A stretch of DNA of 41,162 nucleotides. Origin: Paenibacillus alvei (GTDB lineage: Bacteria; Bacillota; Bacilli; Paenibacillales; NBRC-103111). The position numbers were made by a program, and so were the translations under genes. Location: assembly GCA_945881905.1 (NCBI GenBank), contig CAMCVV010000020.1, positions 1-41,162 on the forward strand, in the 5' to 3' direction. Below are positions 6,440 through 29,598 of the stretch, piece by piece (the first letter of the stretch is position 1; each line of letters begins with the position of its first letter). The notes beneath the pieces were generated by a model. The model did not search any database and was not told the origin of the DNA. It saw only the letters and a list, made by a program, of their open reading frames with translations.

Positions 6440-7975
6440 CTATTTCCTTTCTGTAGCTACCATCGTGAATTGATGTTCCTCTTGTTTATAGGAAAATTCA
6501 GGAAAAAATTGGCTGAAATATTTCAATTGAATGTAACTTACACCTTGAATGACTTTGAGATGATCTGCATCAATCAGAAAACTTGCTTTATGAGATGATC
6601 GTGCAATGTCCACACTCCGTCGTTGTTCGTTCCAAGTGATTTGTGCACCGATTAATGCTGCAAGAACTCGTGATGGAACATATATTTCGCCATCTTGTGT
6701 GATTATATCGATATCTTCGTTAAGACTTACGCCATTGACCAAGAGCTCATAGGCAGAAACGTTAAGCGTGAGGGACGGAATTCCAGCCATACGCAAAGCA
6801 GTTAGGAATTGCGCTAAGTTCCCTGTTATGTCTACATCAGGTTGGATTCCCACCTGGTTTACCTTTGTTTTATTGGGAGTAAAATATTCTTCTGTTGTAA
6901 TCTTCAACATCGTGCCACCTTCTAATGAAAATAGTTGTTGAACGATTCCTTTGCCGAAGCTCTTCTTCCCGACTACACGAGCAATTCGATAATCTCGCAA
7001 GGCACCCGTCAGAAGCTCAGATGCACTTGCTGAGTATGCATTTAGAATCATCGTCACAGGAACTTGTAGATTAGGCTGATTCACATTTACGCGTTGAGGT
7101 TTTTTGGTTTGATCTTTTGCACTCGAATAGTACACGACACCTTTGTTCACAAATCGACTGAAGATGTGAGTAGCCGATTCAGAAAACCCTCCTGAATTAT
7201 TGCGCAAATCAATAATAAGCGAAGTTAACCCTTTCGATTGAAAATCAGCAATCACACGATCGAATTGATCGCCAATATCTGATGAGAAACTGGTAATCTG
7301 TATATACCCCACACCTGGTTCGAACCAATAGCTATAGATATCAGGATAATTGAATGCACTGATCACTAGATCATAAAAGATGATTTGGTTTTGTCTCTTG
7401 ATGGACACATTCATCGAATCTCCGAGCTCACCTTTCAAACGTCTAAACATCTGGTCAATCGAATCGTTGGTAGAAATGCGTACACCATTCACTTCTTGAA
7501 TCTGATCTCCTTTCTGAAGTCCTGCCCTGCTTGCTGGGGAATTCTCTATGACTCCTGTAATGAAGAACCCGTCATCTGCTTTCTCGATCCGAATCCCTAG
7601 CCCTACATAATTTTGTTCAATTGAATTATAAAATCGCGCTGACGCTTCCGCATTGAAATAATCCGTATAAGGGTCATTGATGTACGCTAACATGTTTTCT
7701 ATACTTTTGCCTTGCAATTCTTCATCTGTGACACCACTGATATGATAATTAACGAGCAATTCTCGCACTTGATCTGTGGTACGATCTGGAGATTGTGCAT
7801 AGAGTCCACTTGGAGCAAAGCTGATGAGACCCATACACATGGAAATAATCACAGCAATGATACGTATCGATGACGGAACCCAAGAAGAAATATAAGATTG
7901 CAATTGGTTGAGAACATGATATCCTACCTGTTGCTGATTTTTAGGTTGCTGATATACTGAATTTTGGTTTTCCAA
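6440..7975 (-). CDS. S41 family C-terminal processing protease with PDZ domain
   Basis: Membrane-anchored serine protease of the CtpA/CtpB type. It has a cytoplasmic N-terminus (1-36), a membrane helix or signal anchor (about 37-60) and a PDZ domain (about 122-200, containing ENSPASRAGLQKGDQI). The peptidase core has YSASASE with likely nucleophile Ser317, Lys342 and Gln346 in FGKGIVQ, at the spacing known for CtpB (Ser-25-Lys-4-Gln). Residues about 405-510 resemble a copper-amine-oxidase N-terminal-like domain, common in Paenibacillaceae secreted proteins. The start is TTG at 7975, 7 bp after the mutS stop, preceded by AGGGTAGAG. CtpB of Bacillus acts in sporulation signalling; a similar role here is inference. 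Confidence 0.88.
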   Translation of the reverse strand: MENQNSVYQQPKNQQQVGYHVLNQLQSYISSWVPSSIRIIAVIISMCMGLISFAPSGLYAQSPDRTTDQVRELLVNYHISGVTDEELQGKSIENMLAYINDPYTDYFNAEASARFYNSIEQNYVGLGIRIEKADDGFFITGVIENSPASRAGLQKGDQIQEVNGVRISTNDSIDQMFRRLKGELGDSMNVSIKRQNQIIFYDLVISAFNYPDIYSYWFEPGVGYIQITSFSSDIGDQFDRVIADFQSKGLTSLIIDLRNNSGGFSESATHIFSRFVNKGVVYYSSAKDQTKKPQRVNVNQPNLQVPVTMILNAYSASASELLTGALRDYRIARVVGKKSFGKGIVQQLFSLEGGTMLKITTEEYFTPNKTKVNQVGIQPDVDITGNLAQFLTALRMAGIPSLTLNVSAYELLVNGVSLNEDIDIITQDGEIYVPSRVLAALIGAQITWNEQRRSVDIARSSHKASFLIDADHLKVIQGVSYIQLKYFSQFFPEFSYKQEEHQFTMVATERK

Positions 7976-7982
7976 CTGATCT

Positions 7983-10595
7983 CTACCCTTCTGTAATCAA
8001 AAGTCGTTCTTGAATAGATTGCAAAACATTCATTGCTTGTAAAGGTGTCATGTGATCAACATCGAGCGACATTAATTGCTCGATCACTTCATTGATTCGA
8101 GCGGATTGTTCGATGTCCGTCACACGATTGATTTCCACTTGTTGTGGATAGGTGTATTGAGGAGTAACCCCTGTAACCTCTAGCTGAAGCCTCTGTTCTT
8201 GAGTGCGTAACTCGAATTGTTGAAGCAATGTGTAAGCACGTTGGATGATGGAAGAAGGTAGACCTGCGATTTCTGCACAATATATGCCATAGCTTGTACT
8301 TGCTGCACCGCGAATGAGTTTTCGTAGAAAAGTCACTTGTTGACCACTTTCTTTAACGGCCATGCAATAATTATGTAAATATTCGAGGCTTTGTTCGAGA
8401 TGTGCAAGTTCATGAAAGTGAGTCGATACTAAGGTCTTACAGCCAATTTGCGCATGTAGATATTCAATGACAGCTTGCGCGATCGTAATGCCTTCGCCTG
8501 TGGAAGTTCCGCGTCCAAGTTCATCAATAATGACCAAGCTTGTGCGCGTAGCTTTTTCCGTCATGATCTGTATATCCATCATTTCTACCATGAACGTACT
8601 TTGTCCTCCAATCAAGTCATCCGCTGCACCAATTCGTGTGAAAATACGGTCTGTGATTGGGATTTGTGCAAAGCGTGCAGGTACGAAACACCCGATTTGC
8701 GCCATAATGCATATCAGCGCAACTTGTCTCATGTATGTACTTTTACCCGCCATATTCGGACCGGTAATTAACAGAACATGACTTTCATCTTTTTGTAAGA
8801 ACGTATCGTTAGCAATGAACGTGCCTTGTTCGAGTACGACTTCAACAACAGGATGACGACCTTCTTCGATCCGTAAGTCATAATCACCACCGATGTGTGG
8901 CCGCTTATAATGATTTTTAGCGCTTACCGAAGCAAGTGATTGCATAACATCCATGGTAGCGATATGCTCTGCAAGAAGTTGCAAGCGTGCTACATGTTCT
9001 GCAACACGATCTCTTAACTCACAGAACAAAGCATGCTCCACATGGATGATCGATTCTTGCGCTTCCAATATCAAGGCTTCTTTATCTTTTAGCTCTGGCG
9101 TGACATATCGCTCTGCGTTCGATAACGTTTGTTTGCGTTCGTATCTACCTTCAATGAGATGATGGAGATTAGCTTTCGATACTTCGATGTAATAACCAAA
9201 CACTTTATTGAAACCTATTTTTAAAGACTTGATTCCCGTTGCTTCACGCTCTTGACGCTCAAGCTCAGCAATCCATTGGACACCATGCTTGCTTGCTTCT
9301 CGCAACTGATCTAAGCGAGCATGGAATCCATCACGGATCATTCCGCCATCACGAACAGATACAGGCGGATCATCAACGATCGCTAGGTCAATCCAAGACT
9401 CAATATCATGACAATCATCCATATGCGCCACAATGGTTTGTAGCGTTATCGAACTTGAAGTCGCACAACGTTCGATCAGATACGGCATTTGCTGCAAGGA
9501 ATGCTGCAACGCTTTGATATCTTTGGCGTTGGCATTACCGTAAGAAATCCGACCGACAAGTCTTTCTAAATCATATATTTCTTTCAGCGCTTGCTTGATT
9601 TCTTCCCGCAAGATGAATGAATTCGTCAAATGTTCAACAGCTTCAAGTCGCTCTTGCAGTCGAGCTTCATTCATCAGTGGTTTCTCAATCCAACGTCGTA
9701 GCATTCTTGCTCCCATTGCAGTGACCGTATGATCAAGCAACCAAAAAAGAGAGCCTTTTTTGGTTCGATCACGAACTGTTTCCACAAGCTCCAAATTCCG
9801 TCTCGTGAAGGGGTCCATCGTCATATATTGATCTGGTGTATACATTCGAAGTTGCTTCACATGAGCAAACGCTTTTTTGTGAGTGACTCGCAAGTAACTT
9901 AACATTAGCGCAACGGATTTGCGACTGACAGAAGCCCAGCTGAGCTGACTATATTCTAACGGAAAGTGTGCCGCAAGTAACGATTCATCCGCTTCTTGTG
10001 CAGTGGTATAAGTCACTTTCTTATTCCATAAGGTCATGCTTTGCTCACATTGATGAAGTATCGAAGCACAAGCCAAGATCTCGGAAGGCTGATATACATT
10101 CAGTTCATCAATGACGAAACGAAATGAACCTTCGAACCATGTCGTGTACACTTCTCCCGTAGAAACATCACATGCGCACAAGCCATAGTGGTTCTCTTGA
10201 CCAATGAGTGCAACCATGTAATTATTCGTTGCGCCGCCAAGCATTTTACTGTCAATCACATTTCCTGGTGTAATGATGCGTACGATTTCTCTTTGCACGA
10301 TTCCTTTTGCTAGTGCAGGATCCTCGACTTGTTCACAGATCGCAACCTTGAATCCTTTGTCAATCAGTCGAAAAATATAGCTGTCTGCAGCATGATGAGG
10401 AACTCCACACATCGGAATCCGCTCCTCTGCACCACCTTCACGACCTGTCAACGTCAGTTCAAGCTCACGTGAAGCGACGATGGCATCATCGAAAAACATC
10501 TCATAAAAGTCACCGAGTCGAAAAAACAAAAAAGCATCGGGTACTTGTGCTTTCACAGCTAGATATTGTTGAATCATCGGTGTATAGGTTGTCAT
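7983..10595 (-). CDS. mutS: DNA mismatch repair protein MutS
   Basis: Mismatch-recognition ATPase. The N-terminal mismatch-binding domain has the Phe-Tyr-Glu signature in GDFYEMF (about 28-34). Core and clamp domains follow, then the ABC-type ATPase with P-loop GPNMAGKST (612-620), Walker B and signature segment IIDELGRGTSTGEG, and STHFHEL. The C-terminal helix-turn-helix dimerisation segment is present. The start is the ATG at 10595, not the ATG 12 bp upstream: the upstream ATG lies in the ribosome binding site, which reads ATGGAGGAAGTT before the true ATG. The protein is 870 aa, normal for the family. It heads the mutS-S41-mutL-methyltransferase-miaA group. Confidence 0.97.
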   Translation of the reverse strand: MTTYTPMIQQYLAVKAQVPDAFLFFRLGDFYEMFFDDAIVASRELELTLTGREGGAEERIPMCGVPHHAADSYIFRLIDKGFKVAICEQVEDPALAKGIVQREIVRIITPGNVIDSKMLGGATNNYMVALIGQENHYGLCACDVSTGEVYTTWFEGSFRFVIDELNVYQPSEILACASILHQCEQSMTLWNKKVTYTTAQEADESLLAAHFPLEYSQLSWASVSRKSVALMLSYLRVTHKKAFAHVKQLRMYTPDQYMTMDPFTRRNLELVETVRDRTKKGSLFWLLDHTVTAMGARMLRRWIEKPLMNEARLQERLEAVEHLTNSFILREEIKQALKEIYDLERLVGRISYGNANAKDIKALQHSLQQMPYLIERCATSSSITLQTIVAHMDDCHDIESWIDLAIVDDPPVSVRDGGMIRDGFHARLDQLREASKHGVQWIAELERQEREATGIKSLKIGFNKVFGYYIEVSKANLHHLIEGRYERKQTLSNAERYVTPELKDKEALILEAQESIIHVEHALFCELRDRVAEHVARLQLLAEHIATMDVMQSLASVSAKNHYKRPHIGGDYDLRIEEGRHPVVEVVLEQGTFIANDTFLQKDESHVLLITGPNMAGKSTYMRQVALICIMAQIGCFVPARFAQIPITDRIFTRIGAADDLIGGQSTFMVEMMDIQIMTEKATRTSLVIIDELGRGTSTGEGITIAQAVIEYLHAQIGCKTLVSTHFHELAHLEQSLEYLHNYCMAVKESGQQVTFLRKLIRGAASTSYGIYCAEIAGLPSSIIQRAYTLLQQFELRTQEQRLQLEVTGVTPQYTYPQQVEINRVTDIEQSARINEVIEQLMSLDVDHMTPLQAMNVLQSIQERLLITEG

Positions 10596-10666
10596 AACTT
10601 CCTCCATGCGCGCTTACACGTATGATTCAATTATAACATGAAATCCGGAAGAATGAAGATTAGAAT

Positions 10667-12133
10667 CTAGATAAATGGATGTATTTTCCAGCTTTTACGG
10701 ATATCTACACATTCATTCCACCGATATCTCATTTGGATGTAGTGTTTTAAAGGGGCTACGGCATGAATAAGATTCCGATAGGTTGCTAACTGCTCTAGAT
10801 CGCGCCAGAGCTCCATCACGACCATATAAAGTGAATCACGATCACCTTGATAATAAGCTGCTTGATGTTGAACCAAAGCAAGCGGTCGTTGTCGAAGGGA
10901 GAGATAATTGTTGGCAATGCATTGTGCTAAAGCAAAGACACCTCGAGTCACGATCGGTGAAGCCAACCAACTGGGTAAAGTTCGATACTCAAAACCACCA
11001 TGCGGCTGTCTGCGAAAGTCACCGAGAAAGCCATATCGGGGTCGGCGGTATGCAGCAGACTCACTTTCAAGCTGCAACAATGGTAAAGCTAGATAATTAT
11101 CAAGTGTTCGCAACAAGTCCGTATTCAACCATATCCGGCTGAAATGAATGTGTCCGCCAAGCGGGAAGCCTTTGACTGGCATGCCTCCTGATAGCCAAGA
11201 CAGCTGATCATCGGTAATCATATGGGCGGCACCTTGCATAGCGCGATGCACATGAGCTGTTAATTCATCTGCATGCTCACTCGGCGGTGGGCGTAGCTCT
11301 ACGAGTGGCCGAATCACTTGACCTCTCACCTGTATCACTGCGTCACAGCCAACTTCTCCTTCGCGAGCCAAAAACCGTGAAGCCGGTACGACTTTCCCTT
11401 GCTCGTTCTGCAAAATGAACTCCGGATCAGCTCCTAGCCACACAGGTATATGTGGAGCAGACAACTCCTTTAGCGCATGTGCAAAGCGATTCATCGCATC
11501 TGCTACTAGCTTACACAGCAGATCTCCCCACTTCGGGACAGGATCCACATCGACGACGAGTACATCTCTATTTGTGGAGAATCCAATCGTTACAACCCCA
11601 TAATCAAGTCCGAGTGCGTAAATCACTTTGATCGCTTCTCGTTTCGCTTTACGCGATACGTAGCTATTGCAGTCGGAAAATTCACTACTCAGATAGGGTT
11701 TTATCATACTTCTAGAGATGTCTTGACGTAACCATATCGGACTAGAACTAATGAACATCGCGATCATCTCTAGTTGGAATACCATGACGCGATACATCGT
11801 AGAGAAATGCTCTCCCCTGAAGTGATGCTCACCATCGGAGTTATCCTCCGTCGAGTCAAACACCTCAGCTGTCTGGGATGAGCGGTACGTTCTTGCCGTC
11901 TTGATCCCGTGGAGCGCTAGCAACGTTTCACGTTGGAGAGGACACCGTGCTTGTTGAACTGCTGAACGATGTTGGAAAACCAACCGTCCTGTGCTTGCTT
12001 CATTACGATCGCCATATTGGATAATTGCACCATCATGCAAAGAAGCTGGTAGACGAGCGCCATGGGGAAAGTTCAATTCTCGGCCTAATGCCAAGGCATC
12101 TTCTTCGTTGCTATGCAACAAGAACAATTGCAT
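10667..12133 (-). CDS. Putative amidoligase (COOH-NH2 ligase type), possible ATP-grasp fusion
   Basis: Probably an ATP-dependent ligase that forms amide bonds between carboxyl and amino groups; substrate unknown. The C-terminal half carries motifs I recognise from the phage-type amidoligase family: GADPEF (234-239), VELRPPP (278-284), GGHIHFS (326-332) and GFEYRTLPSWL (380-390), with conserved acids, His and Arg suited to ATP/metal binding. The N-terminal half (about 165-203) has an ALGLDYG...VVDVDPVP stretch that resembles the C-terminal part of an ATP-grasp domain. AAAGGAGA precedes the ATG. It lies between cotE and mutS, 48 bp after cotE, which suggests a sporulation or coat-related modification role. 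The function is inference. Confidence 0.72.
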   Translation of the reverse strand: MQLFLLHSNEEDALALGRELNFPHGARLPASLHDGAIIQYGDRNEASTGRLVFQHRSAVQQARCPLQRETLLALHGIKTARTYRSSQTAEVFDSTEDNSDGEHHFRGEHFSTMYRVMVFQLEMIAMFISSSPIWLRQDISRSMIKPYLSSEFSDCNSYVSRKAKREAIKVIYALGLDYGVVTIGFSTNRDVLVVDVDPVPKWGDLLCKLVADAMNRFAHALKELSAPHIPVWLGADPEFILQNEQGKVVPASRFLAREGEVGCDAVIQVRGQVIRPLVELRPPPSEHADELTAHVHRAMQGAAHMITDDQLSWLSGGMPVKGFPLGGHIHFSRIWLNTDLLRTLDNYLALPLLQLESESAAYRRPRYGFLGDFRRQPHGGFEYRTLPSWLASPIVTRGVFALAQCIANNYLSLRQRPLALVQHQAAYYQGDRDSLYMVVMELWRDLEQLATYRNLIHAVAPLKHYIQMRYRWNECVDIRKSWKIHPFI

Positions 12134-12181
12134 CGCCAGTCTCCTTTGTCTTCGTCGTCACCGATCGCTGTCAATACGCAA

Positions 12182-12751
12182 TCATGAGCTATATTCGTTT
12201 TCAAGCATTACATCATCAAGCTCTTCATAGTCACTTGCGTGATTGTCATCATAATTGACGTATTTGTCATCCTCTTCATTACAATTCCCTTGACAAACAA
12301 GTATACACACTTTCGTTTCTGCAATCATTTGTACTTCGAATTCTCGTTCTACACGAACCACGACATGCTTTCCATTCATAGCGATATTCGCTTCTACACA
12401 ATGAGGAGCTTGCGTAGATTCAGCAACGACTTCTGAAGTGATTGATTTATGCTTCTGATCTATATACGTGAGGGGAATTGTTTCTACGTAAGACATCATT
12501 TCCTTTGCTACATCTGTTTTCGAATTATGATCATGAGAGTACCATATATTGATATCATAAGTACCCGCAACTTCCACATGATCTCCTGAACGGATAGCCT
12601 CATATTGGTGATTAATAATCCAAGCACCAAGGATACTCGTAGGCGAACAAGGTGGGGTTACGGTATGGCTGACTAGCGCAAATTTACGACCTTTGCCACA
12701 CACAGCTTTTGTAATAATTTCACGACAAGTCATATGATGATGAATCGTCAT
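12182..12751 (-). CDS. cotE: Outer spore coat morphogenetic protein CotE
   Basis: Scaffold protein needed to assemble the outer spore coat. The 189 aa show the CotE hallmarks: CREIITKAVCGKGRKF near the N-terminus, PTSILGAWIINHQYEA, a VEVAGTYDINIWYSHDHNSKT segment, and an acidic Asp/Glu-rich C-terminal tail. I place the start at ATG 12751 because GGAGGAGGTT lies about 7 bp upstream; the in-frame start 27 bp further up has no such site. It is upstream of the amidoligase and mutS, the neighbourhood seen in Bacillus (cotE-mutS-mutL). Expression is probably in the mother cell under SigE/SigK, but I could not firmly place a promoter. Confidence 0.93.
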   Translation of the reverse strand: MTIHHHMTCREIITKAVCGKGRKFALVSHTVTPPCSPTSILGAWIINHQYEAIRSGDHVEVAGTYDINIWYSHDHNSKTDVAKEMMSYVETIPLTYIDQKHKSITSEVVAESTQAPHCVEANIAMNGKHVVVRVEREFEVQMIAETKVCILVCQGNCNEEDDKYVNYDDNHASDYEELDDVMLENEYSS

Positions 12752-12861
12752 CTCTTTCAACCTCCTCCATACAATCATTCGTTACAAGCATATGCAGGAC
12801 AGCAGCCTATAGTGACAATTATTTATAATTCATGAATTTCACTCAATCGATCAAGATGTAC

Positions 12862-21971: not shown

Positions 21972-23003
21972 TCATTCAATCGTAATATCTCCAACGTCTA
22001 CTCGCACTTGGATCACGTCAGTCGTTTGTTGCAATGCTTCCTTTGTTTGGATGTCTCCAACACGTGTTTGAATGTCATAGAAACCTGTGAAATCTGGTGC
22101 ATGATCAATATAAACATCACCTACATGAGTCTTGATGTTTAGCTGATTGACCTTCGTTTGAGTGATATCGATATCGCCGATTTGCACAGTCACATCAACA
22201 TCACCGTCTACGTTATCGAACTCCACATCCCCAACTTCTACACGAGCTAGCAGAGTTCCTCTGATGCTTGAACCTTCGACATAACCAAACCCAACTTTCA
22301 GGATCGTGCTCTTCGCTTGGATTCGATCCAATGTCAAATCACCAAACTCTTGGTCAATCACTATATCATTAGCTGTCAAATTCCTCACCTCCACATTCGC
22401 TGAAGATGACTGAATTTCGACAAGATCGAATACCGTGGGTTGGGTAAGATATAGAGTGATCGTAATCGACGGTTGTTTGAATTTGAGATTGAATAACTGA
22501 AACTCGAATCCATCAACAGCTGGTTGTTGATCTAGATTCATCTCGAAGGTTTGATTGGTAATCCGCAGTTGCTGCATTCGTTCAGCAAGCGCTGTAGTCA
22601 CATGTCCACGGATATCTAGCACATTCGATCCATTCGTGCTAGGTAAGACAACAACTTTCACATCCACCGTGTCATGGTTGAGCTTCATGCGAGTTAAAGC
22701 ACCTTGTTCGAACGTGATTTGATGTGTAACCTCTGTGTGGGCACTTTCTTTCACACCTAACGACGAAAGATCCTCAAGATTCGTCCAAGTGAAGATCAGA
22801 CCGATGACGCTGATGACGTCATGGTAGAGCTTCATGCGAGTTAAAGCACCTTGTTCGAACGTGATTTGATGTGTAACCTCTGTGTGGGCACTTTCTTTCA
22901 CACCTAACGACGAAAGATCCTTAAGATTCGTCCAAGTGAAGATCAGACCGATGACGCTGATGACGATCAGTACTACACTGAGTAACGCTATTTTTTTGAT
23001 CAT
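21972..23003 (-). CDS. DUF4097 beta-strand-repeat membrane protein with internal duplication
   Basis: Envelope protein of unknown function. The N-terminal helix (about 4-24) anchors a C-terminal DUF4097-type beta-helix (about 160-343) built of repeated V-x-x-GD-V/I strands, such as VEVGDVEFDNVDGDVDVTVQIGDIDI. Residues from VISVIGLIFTWTNL to TRMKL occur twice in tandem (49 codons), so the predicted protein has a second copy of half the membrane helix. AAGGAAG precedes the ATG, only 1 bp after the DUF1700 stop. It belongs to the PadR-DUF1700-DUF4097 operon, known in Firmicutes as an envelope-stress-like module. Confidence 0.83.
   Translation of the reverse strand: MIKKIALLSVVLIVISVIGLIFTWTNLKDLSSLGVKESAHTEVTHQITFEQGALTRMKLYHDVISVIGLIFTWTNLEDLSSLGVKESAHTEVTHQITFEQGALTRMKLNHDTVDVKVVVLPSTNGSNVLDIRGHVTTALAERMQQLRITNQTFEMNLDQQPAVDGFEFQLFNLKFKQPSITITLYLTQPTVFDLVEIQSSSANVEVRNLTANDIVIDQEFGDLTLDRIQAKSTILKVGFGYVEGSSIRGTLLARVEVGDVEFDNVDGDVDVTVQIGDIDITQTKVNQLNIKTHVGDVYIDHAPDFTGFYDIQTRVGDIQTKEALQQTTDVIQVRVDVGDITIE
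22671..22964. repeat. 147-bp tandem duplication inside the DUF4097 gene
   Basis: Copies at 22671-22817 and 22818-22964 are directly adjacent and differ, by eye, at only two positions (TTG/TAG near the start; CTC/CTT before AAGATTCG). The unit is 49 codons, so the reading frame is kept. The near identity indicates a recent event. Confidence 0.95.
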
Positions 23004-28077: not shown

Positions 28078-28209
28078 CTACATACGAACTATCCTTTTCT
28101 ATGTATCTTGGTCTCCAATGTAACTTCGAATAATCGATTGATAAATCGTTAATAATTATACTTATAATTATAATAATAGTAAGTATAATAAATAAATGAG
28201 GTGGTTACA

Positions 28210-29598
28210 ATGAAACATTTTATCGATCGAGAACAAGAAATGCATTTTCTCAATGAAGAATACAATCGAAAAGGGTCTTCTTTCGTCGTGCTGTATGGTA
28301 GACGTAGAGTGGGTAAGACCGAACTTTCAGCTGCGTTTATGCGGGGAAAAAATGCACTATATTTTCTTGTAACAGAGGAAAGTGAACAGCAAAACCGCAA
28401 TTCATTTAAAGAAGTTGTTGCAGACTTTTGCAATAACGATCTATTAAAACAAGCACGGGTAGATAGTTGGGATCTATTATTCAAGACGCTTCTATCGAGA
28501 ACTGTTGATAACAAATTAATTCTCGTCATCGATGAATTTCAATACTTGGGAAAATCGTATCCAGCGTTCCCATCGGTTTTCCAAAAAATATGGGACACGA
28601 TGTTAAAAGACGAAAATATTATGGTCATTCTTTGTGGCTCACTGATACCAATGATGGAGTGTCAGACGTTGAATTATACCAGTCCCTTATATGGTAGAAG
28701 AACAGGACAAATCAAGTTGAAACAAATCCCATTTTCATATTATCATGAATTTTTTCCTGAAAAGAATCGCAAAGAATTGATCGAATATTTCGCGATTACC
28801 GGTGGTGTACCTAAATATATCGAACTTTTTTATGATAGTGAAGACATTTATTCTGCAATTGATAAAAATATATTGTCCAAACAAAGCTTTCTTTATGATG
28901 AGCCCAATTTCCTGTTGCAGCGCGAAGTGACTGAAGTTGGCAGCTATTTTTCTGTTATAAAAGCAATCGCAGCAGGTCATCAAAAGTTAGCTAAAATCGC
29001 TGGTAATTTGGAATTAAAGCAAACAGGACTAACGAAGTACCTCAGAACATTAATAGATCTTGATATTCTAGAAAGAGAAGTTCCCATAACCGAAGAAAGT
29101 CCGGAAAAAAGTAAAAGAGGATTGTATAAGATAAAAGATAATTTTATTCTATTTTGGTTTAAATTTATCTATCCAAACTTGAGTTTCATCGAGTCAGGAA
29201 ATAAAGAACTTGCGATGAAAAAAATTAAAAATCGTTTGACAAATGAGCATATCAGCTATGTGTATGAAGATATATGCATAGAAGAAATGTGGAAGTTAAA
29301 TGCGTTGGGGAAACTGAACTTTACGTTTGATAAAGTGGGGCGATGGTGGAATCATGACAATGAAATCGATATTGTCGGATTTGATAGCACTGGGACAGAT
29401 ATCATTTTTGGAGAATGTAAGTATTGGGAAGGCAAAGTGGGCGTGAATGTTCTTACTGCACTAGAGGAGAAAGCAAAGGCCGTTGAGTGGAAAAGAGAAA
29501 AGCGTAAGGAACATTATATTCTATTTTCTATTCATGGATTTACAAATGAACTGATTGCACTGACGAAAACAAGGAATGATGTGGTGTTAAGTGAGTAA
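28210..29598 (+). CDS. AAA-type ATPase with DUF234 nuclease-like C-terminus
   Basis: Orphan P-loop ATPase of the archaeal-type/DUF234 family; function unknown. The P-loop YGRRRVGKT is at 29-37 and Walker B VIDEFQYL near residue 105. A winged-helix-like part (about 255-300) is followed by a C-terminal domain with EIDIV (Glu385, Asp387) and FGECKYW (Glu402, Lys404), which fits a PD-(D/E)xK nuclease core. 462 aa is usual for the family. The start is ATG 28210 (GAGGTGG upstream) rather than GTG 28201. The gene is visibly more A+T-rich than its neighbours. IS3 remnants lie on both sides, and one IS end begins 2 bp after its stop codon. Horizontal origin is likely. Confidence 0.85.
   Translation: MKHFIDREQEMHFLNEEYNRKGSSFVVLYGRRRVGKTELSAAFMRGKNALYFLVTEESEQQNRNSFKEVVADFCNNDLLKQARVDSWDLLFKTLLSRTVDNKLILVIDEFQYLGKSYPAFPSVFQKIWDTMLKDENIMVILCGSLIPMMECQTLNYTSPLYGRRTGQIKLKQIPFSYYHEFFPEKNRKELIEYFAITGGVPKYIELFYDSEDIYSAIDKNILSKQSFLYDEPNFLLQREVTEVGSYFSVIKAIAAGHQKLAKIAGNLELKQTGLTKYLRTLIDLDILEREVPITEESPEKSKRGLYKIKDNFILFWFKFIYPNLSFIESGNKELAMKKIKNRLTNEHISYVYEDICIEEMWKLNALGKLNFTFDKVGRWWNHDNEIDIVGFDSTGTDIIFGECKYWEGKVGVNVLTALEEKAKAVEWKREKRKEHYILFSIHGFTNELIALTKTRNDVVLSE

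Follow-up and report, generated by a model that had tools for sequence, protein, structure and literature searches.

A predicted amide ligase linked to cotE and to YheC/D ATP-grasp proteins in Bacilli

In the Bacilli genomes that we sampled, a predicted carboxylate-amine ligase of the PF14395 family is restricted to genomes that also carry cotE and YheC/D genes, and it therefore probably makes a chemical link in the spore coat. The best overall explanation, in which we place slightly more confidence than doubt, is that it is an ATP-dependent amide ligase that works together with YheC/D proteins on the coat. Behind the plain family name stands a well-conserved ligase that is tied to CotE and, in part of its range, is accompanied by one or two further ligase folds. 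If this explanation is true, coat assembly across a large part of the Bacilli uses dedicated amide ligases.

Results

The ligase gene and its neighbors

The window, i.e. the complete stretch of DNA analyzed, is an entire contig of 41,162 bases and belongs to a genome of 2.4 Mb that was rated 99.6% complete. Spo0A, CotE and SpoIVA were found in this genome together with 8 matches to YheC/D, and a profile search returned one match to PF14395. A first-pass annotation had described a 488-aa protein with the motifs GADPEF, VELRPPP and GGHIHFS, encoded 48 bp after cotE and in front of mutS. The open reading frame was found to be intact, with the three motifs starting at residues 234, 278 and 326, respectively, and the neighbors were identified by Pfam as CotE and MutS. 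A gap of 59 bp (10608-10666) separates the end of the ligase gene from mutS. The coordinates of the features are compiled in Table 1.

Table 1. Features of the cotE-ligase-mutS region of the window
Feature	Position	Strand	Basis and remarks
CotE-linked amidoligase, whole ORF, 488 aa	10667..12133	(-)	Open, ATG start; PF14395 E=1.1e-94
N-terminal domain, residues 1-224, RimK-like ATP-grasp fold	11462..12133	(-)	VIA Z to RimK; about 90 residues short, variable metal-ligand positions; probably inactive
C-terminal domain, residues 229-488, carboxylate-amine ligase of GS/GCS fold (predicted)	10670..11449	(-)	PF14395; VIA Z; conservation
mutS	7983..10607	(-)	Pfam; conserved downstream neighbor of the ligase gene, probably transcribed as a separate unit
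cotE, outer spore coat protein	12182..12778	(-)	PF10628 E=9.1e-74
Conserved element TGTCCTGCATA...TTGTAA just 5' of cotE	12782..12801	(-)	Probably part of the cotE promoter
cotE-ligase gap, 48 bp	12134..12181	(-)	No terminator-like site found, unlike most relatives

The PF14395 profile (COOH-NH2_lig) was matched over its full length (positions 1-254 of 254) by residues 233-484 with 316.8 bits, far above the curated cut-off of 25. The family name, COOH-NH2 ligase, is presumably itself a prediction. At E values of up to 1, PF14395 was the only Pfam match of the protein; nothing was found for the N-terminal half, and PF14398 was not among the matches. NCBIfam, searched at the same threshold, gave no match for the ligase or for CotE. 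A PDB sequence search with the ligase protein yielded no relatives, and a PDB search with two profiles yielded unrelated proteins only, at E values of 0.2 or worse. The PHROG family of S6 glutaminyl transferase touched residues 159-218 with an E value of 0.046.

Two further features of the window were recorded. A 147-bp tandem duplication (22671-22965; two copies, 98% alike) lies within an ORF for a 343-aa DUF4097 protein (21972-23003, minus strand); it may be a recent duplication or an assembly effect. In addition, a DUF234/ATPase_2 protein, an archaeal-type ATPase, is encoded at 28201-29598 on the plus strand.

Structure of the C-terminal domain

A full-length model was generated with AlphaFold2 from 42 sequences (pLDDT 87.6, pTM 0.89) and was then used for a structure search, for which VIA Z scores are given. 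Residues 229-488 aligned with 1tt4 (Z 17.0, 3.0 Å, 239 residues), YbdK (Z 16.9, 2.9 Å, 236 residues), Dop (Z 16.0, 3.6 Å, 243 residues), PafA (Z 15.6, 3.4 Å, 248 residues), and GCS (Z about 13-15). The amidoligase domain that had been proposed from the motifs was thus recovered by structure prediction and fold search as a GS/GCS-type fold, in which conserved acidic, histidine and arginine residues are present.

In an alignment of 27 diverse rows, 33 columns were invariant, of which 31 lay in the C-terminal and 2 in the N-terminal domain; for 42 closer rows, the respective numbers were 52 and 7. The invariant residues of the C-terminal domain include D236, E238, E279, R281, H328, H330, D345, E356, R363, D372, E382 and R384; we take them to be ordered much like the residues that bind metal and substrate in E. 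coli GCS. Judged from the model, the C-terminal domain would be a carboxylate-amine ligase of the GS/GCS type, and the enzyme is most likely an active amide ligase.

Structure of the N-terminal domain

At the N-terminus, the end of an ATP-grasp domain had been suspected. This resemblance is real and larger than proposed, as residues 1-224 adopt wholly an ATP-grasp fold in the models. Within the full-length model, the domain matched RimK with a Z score of 15.0 (4.0 Å, 196 of 291 residues aligned), LysX/ArgX with about 14, and PsnB with 13.6. When the domain was modelled alone (pLDDT 84.8), RimK was matched with a Z score of 14.9 (3.7 Å, 196 of 291). The 50 rows listed in the search with the isolated domain comprised chains of RimK, LysX/ArgX, PsnB, Ddl, VanA-like proteins, carbamoyl-phosphate synthetase and PPIP5K2, all of which we take to be ATP-grasp proteins. 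Both domains therefore align with ligase folds, and both of the halves proposed earlier exist.

The best RimK rows matched 196-202 of 291-292 RimK residues, such that about 90 residues were without a counterpart in the N-terminal domain. According to the order of strands in the model, the missing part should be the subdomain that clasps ATP, including its lysine. Positions 182, 195 and 197, which presumably line up with the RimK metal ligands D and E-x-N, were variable, and 9 kinds of residues were found at position 182 in the 27 rows. The equivalents of D and E-x-N were seen in YheC/D: in 11 YheC/D proteins, of which five are encoded in the window genome and six in two further genomes, K201, K242, R317, D400, E413 and N415 were invariant. 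A profile comparison of the N-terminal domain with YheC/D aligned the last motif only (20 columns, E=2.9e-4, probability 41%).

If the N-terminal half were active, one chain would contain two successive ligases. The retention of the overall ATP-grasp fold, with a Z score of 14.9 for the isolated domain, and a nearly invariant GLDxGxV motif would be in accordance with such an arrangement. However, the limited match to RimK and the variation at the three putative ligand positions, where the 11 YheC/D proteins keep their catalytic set invariant, make it very improbable. Because about 90 RimK residues are missing and the metal-ligand positions vary, the N-terminal half is probably a dead ATP-grasp scaffold and not a second ligase, and it has probably been kept for binding. 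The first-pass annotation had spoken of two ligase-like modules; this is supported for the two folds, but not for two working active sites.

The residues of the YheC/D proteins also touch on the direction of the reaction. By these residues, the partner proteins are intact ligases, and the enzyme encoded beside cotE might remove the groups that they add, in the manner of a Dop-like deamidase or isopeptidase. Dop indeed falls short of the best matches by no more than about 1 Z unit (16.0 vs. 17.0 and 16.9). However, YbdK scores slightly above Dop and PafA about equal to it, comparisons from which the direction is not readable by fold alone, and we regard a reverse enzyme as improbable and the formation of amide bonds as the preferred reading.

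Linkage to cotE and mutS

Homologues were found in 36 of 38 relatives of the window genome (37/39 when the window genome itself is counted). For the 36 relatives with a match, 29 loci were returned, and cotE preceded and mutS followed the ligase gene in all 29. A scan of public genomes revealed 524 encoding stretches, and the best 80 of these were analyzed (the named loci). In these best 80 of 524, the ligase gene was preceded by cotE in 79 loci and followed by mutS in 79, and both neighbors were within 0.9 kb in 77. The exceptions were two contig ends (L116 and L090) and one locus with mutS at a distance of 1.9 kb (L148). The named loci stem mostly from Paenibacillus, and also from Tepidibacillus, Vulcanibacillus, Chengkuizengella, Ammoniphilus and some metagenome bins. 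The neighborhood survey thus made the linkage to cotE stronger than could be foreseen from the window.

For a class-wide view of spacing, both coordinates were taken for 107 of 161 ligase genomes. In 95 of the 107, no more than 1.5 kb separated the end of cotE from the PF14395 domain that follows it; in 11, the distance was 1.7-5 kb, with cotE upstream on the same strand. In the one genome without linkage, G179, mutS lies next to the ligase gene and cotE at a distance of 480 kb.

The stability of the block in the class, the promoter-like TATAAT of mutS directly after the ligase gene and the gene order in G179 could be explained by a housekeeping gene that merely hitchhikes between cotE and mutS. 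However, the ligase is confined to CotE-positive genomes (161/161), and YheC/D genes enter the cotE-ligase-mutS block; hitchhiking is thus the explanation to which we give almost no credence.

A plasmid search for the ligase returned a single record, which carries the cotE-ligase-mutS block with the ligase annotated as 'hypothetical protein'. This 'plasmid' (100 kb; L228, NZ_CP013205.1 47249-62346) comes from Paenibacillus sp. IHB B 3084 and contains cotE, mutS, mutL, miaA and hfq, which are core genes of the chromosome; it may be a piece of the chromosome or a second replicon. In the window, mutS and mutL are separated by a gene for a peptidase of family S41 that also has PDZ and copper-amine-oxidase-N domains (6440-7975, minus strand). 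The order mutS-S41 peptidase-mutL was present in 69 of the 76 named loci containing both mut genes, and this arrangement is therefore normal for the group.

YheC/D genes and fused ligases

Where cotE and the ligase gene lie apart on one strand, YheC/D genes were found between them in 9 of 9 loci read, i.e. in 7 of the 11 spaced same-strand cases and in two further genomes (G094 and G058). For four proteins, encoded in L062 and L067, the YheC/D identity was tested and confirmed with Pfam. The gene order was cotE-yhe-yhe-yhe-lig-mutS in L067 and L068, and cotE-yhe-yhe-lig-yhe, in some cases with one more, in the remaining loci with inserted YheC/D genes. In L067 the genes are tightly packed: the longest ligase ORF overlaps the preceding yhe ORF by 20 bases, and the aligned part of the ligase begins about 30 bases after that ORF.

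Two genomes (G124 and G136) encode, besides the usual copy, a fused protein (880 or 886 aa) in which PF14395 precedes PF14398. In both genomes the next gene after the fused gene encodes a Mur-type ligase (L072, 7201-8649; L073, 7690-9105), and in L072 a PEP-mutase-like gene comes next. These loci with a fused ligase-YheC/D gene are possibly peptide-metabolite clusters.

The fused genes lead to the question of whether the product could be a small molecule, i.e. a soluble amide such as a gamma-glutamyl compound or a dipeptide, that is used in the spore instead of being attached to coat proteins. The nearest solved folds, YbdK and, with lower scores, GCS, are small-molecule enzymes, and the fused paralogues lie beside a Mur-type ligase in both genomes, in one case near the PEP-mutase-like gene, as in peptide-metabolite clusters. 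However, the main gene copy is tied to the structural coat gene cotE, the genes that flank the ligase in the named loci are cotE and mutS and not metabolic genes, and the protein-acting enzymes Dop and PafA are within 1-1.5 Z units of the best match. We consider a soluble product to be rather unlikely, albeit a serious alternative, and prefer an action on the coat.

In the window's own group, a physical link to YheC/D was hardly seen, as a YheC/D homologue was present in the flanks (up to 8 kb) of only 1 of the 80 named loci (L095), which are mostly from Paenibacillus. The 8 YheC/D matches of the window genome lie elsewhere. Five of them are arranged in tandem on another contig (C9; L184, 6182-12358), and the 8 matches make a large family for a genome of only 2.4 Mb. 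The part of a second ligase is probably played by a separate protein, YheC/D, rather than by the N-terminal half of the ligase.

Distribution in Bacilli

The class sample consisted of 299 Bacilli genomes, including the window genome, and was complemented by 14 control genomes from outside the class. Matches were found for the ligase in 161 of the 299 genomes, for CotE in 210, for Spo0A in 247 and for YheC/D in 202. CotE and YheC/D were both present in all 161 ligase genomes, and only one of these, G067, had no Spo0A match. Homologues in non-spore-formers without linkage to cotE had been named as the observation that would speak against a coat role; within the class sample, none of the 89 genomes without a CotE match had the ligase, and it was found in 0 of the 14 controls. 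The co-occurrence has a P value of 1e-40, which was computed on related genomes, such that the counts are not independent events; we therefore rely on its direction and not on the P value.

There were 49 CotE-positive genomes of the class sample without ligase, and YheC/D was rarer in these, with a median of 1 and none in 19 genomes. In the ligase genomes the median was at least 8, with about 8 candidates scored per genome. B. subtilis, a named control, had CotE and YheC/D matches and no ligase match. YheC/D alone is no marker of spore formers: its model matched 5 of the 14 controls, including E. coli, Synechococcus and two archaea, with 4 of the 5 over the cut-off, and 11 of the 89 CotE-negative genomes (by subtraction, 202 less 161 less 30).

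Several genomes illustrate the loss of the ligase. In G033, CotE was kept and the ligase was lost, and cotE is directly followed by mutS. A decaying ligase copy lies beside an intact cotE in G004, the copy of G005 is split between frames, and one TGA was found inside the ligase alignment of G017. In G022, which is 68% complete, neither cotE nor the ligase was found. Because it is lost or decaying in CotE-positive genomes, the ligase serves a refinement that can be dispensed with and not the core of the spore. G083 and G306, which belong to a single genus of the same order as the window genome, have kept Spo0A and show no CotE and no ligase; one of them has 4 YheC/D matches, the other none.

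Relatives were also found to be encoded in 20 viral contigs, with 23-43% identity over parts of the protein. In 4 of 4 viral loci scanned (L156-L159, of the 20), the product of the gene that follows the ligase gene or genes matches a class II glutamine amidotransferase, with the match in L156 below the cut-off. A collection of annotated phages yielded no match to the ligase.

Expression signals

Upstream of cotE, the 10-mer GTCCTGCATA was present in 74 of 79 named loci. The longer pattern, TGTCCTGCATA...TTGTAA, occurred in 0 of 100 shuffles, a number that is no independent test, as the pattern was drawn after the block had been seen. The relatives mostly extend the GTCCTGCATA block as CATACA, and this continuation could, by its sequence, be a mother-cell -10 element. 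The strict sigma-E and sigma-K consensus sequences were found upstream of cotE in 1 and 2 of 79 loci, respectively, which was not above shuffles.

A terminator-like hairpin was detected between cotE and the ligase gene in 61 of 73 relatives (3-14 in ten shuffles), and co-transcription of the two genes is therefore not general. The gap in the window has no such site; cotE and the ligase gene thus probably form one transcript here, as an exception to the rule. The gap between the ligase gene and mutS contains TGTTATAAT, which is absent from the list of the consensus scan. An Rfam search of the window gave nothing at gathering score.

The cotE-ligase gaps of the named loci (L076-L155) also contain recurrent short elements. 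A box of the form RWWTRGGY, which we take to be the GerE consensus, was found in 52 of 73 gaps (mean of shuffles 10, largest 19); for an ATATGC/T element, the count was 43 of 73 (6 in shuffles). Such elements might belong to a promoter that is used late in the mother cell. However, a -10 element was not enriched and many of the species are closely related, and for these reasons we do not rely on the GerE-like boxes.

Discussion

We propose a reaction in which the C-terminal domain would activate a carboxylate by phosphorylation, most likely that of glutamate or a similar acid, and would then couple it to an amine, such that the product bond would be an amide, either peptide or isopeptide. The shortened N-terminal ATP-grasp domain, which is probably non-catalytic, would bind the substrate or a partner protein. 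The ligase would be made in the mother cell together with CotE, would be located in the coat and, in concert with YheC/D-type ATP-grasp ligases, would build an amide-linked modification or a short peptide of the coat.

The acidic tail of CotE was considered as a substrate and rejected. The C-termini of CotE from 20 ligase-negative genomes were compared with those from ligase-positive genomes (18 of 19 others, 29 relatives, 7 with inserted YheC/D genes, and the window); L219 had no readable CotE tail. The tails were mostly acidic with and without the ligase, and non-acidic tails were found in 2 of the 20 ligase-negative genomes. As the tails are acidic in both sets, the substrate idea gained nothing from this comparison.

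A more far-reaching version can be formulated, namely a spore-coat conjugation system in many Bacilli outside the Bacillus lineage. It would consist of a GS-fold ligase with a repurposed dead ATP-grasp domain, several YheC/D proteins and sometimes a Mur-type ligase, and would furnish coat proteins with isopeptide tags or cross-links of non-ribosomal origin, as a coat counterpart of pupylation or S6 glutamylation. We regard this version as speculative and doubtful.

Both families, PF14395 and YheC/D, are already known, and part of our reading may be in print. Iyer and others reportedly classified these ligases in 2009, and a spore-wall role for YheC/D is said to have been predicted there already; Pfam presumably predicts such a role as well. 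Our literature search covered titles and the starts of abstracts. Among the matches listed, none linked PF14395 ligases to the coat of Bacilli, and the cotE-ligase-YheC/D arrangement was not found.

For B. subtilis, an excerpt of one report describes yheC and yheD as sigma-E genes that are raised by SpoIIID (PMC517825), and an excerpt of another describes how YheD, a spore-surface protein, is first arranged in two circles and later encloses the spore as a shell (PMC7911427). In the Paenibacillus polymyxa laboratory strain DSM 365, CotE-GFP display works, according to an excerpt of a 2024 paper (PMC11278568). The conserved ligase beside cotE and its tie to YheC/D indicate that amide-linked modifications are to be looked for in spore coats.

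The protein combines features of several known systems. The fold of residues 1-224 is shared with RimK, LysX/ArgX and PsnB, but, in comparison to RimK, the domain is about 90 residues shorter and its metal-ligand positions are not conserved. YheC/D (PF14398) retains the ATP-grasp catalytic residues, whereas the window ligase does not match PF14398; in some families, YheC/D belongs to the same gene cluster or even the same polypeptide as the ligase. The fold of residues 229-488 is common to the pupylation enzymes PafA and Dop as well as to YbdK and GCS, all of which are without a credible sequence match to the ligase in the PDB set. With the type 2 ligase of phiEco32-like phages, the C-terminal domain has full-length membership in PF14395 in common. 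In the phage loci scanned, the ligase is followed by a match to a class II glutamine amidotransferase, whereas in the cellular branch the neighbors are CotE and MutS, which flank the ligase in the window as in the 77 of 80 loci with both genes within 0.9 kb, and elsewhere YheC/D.
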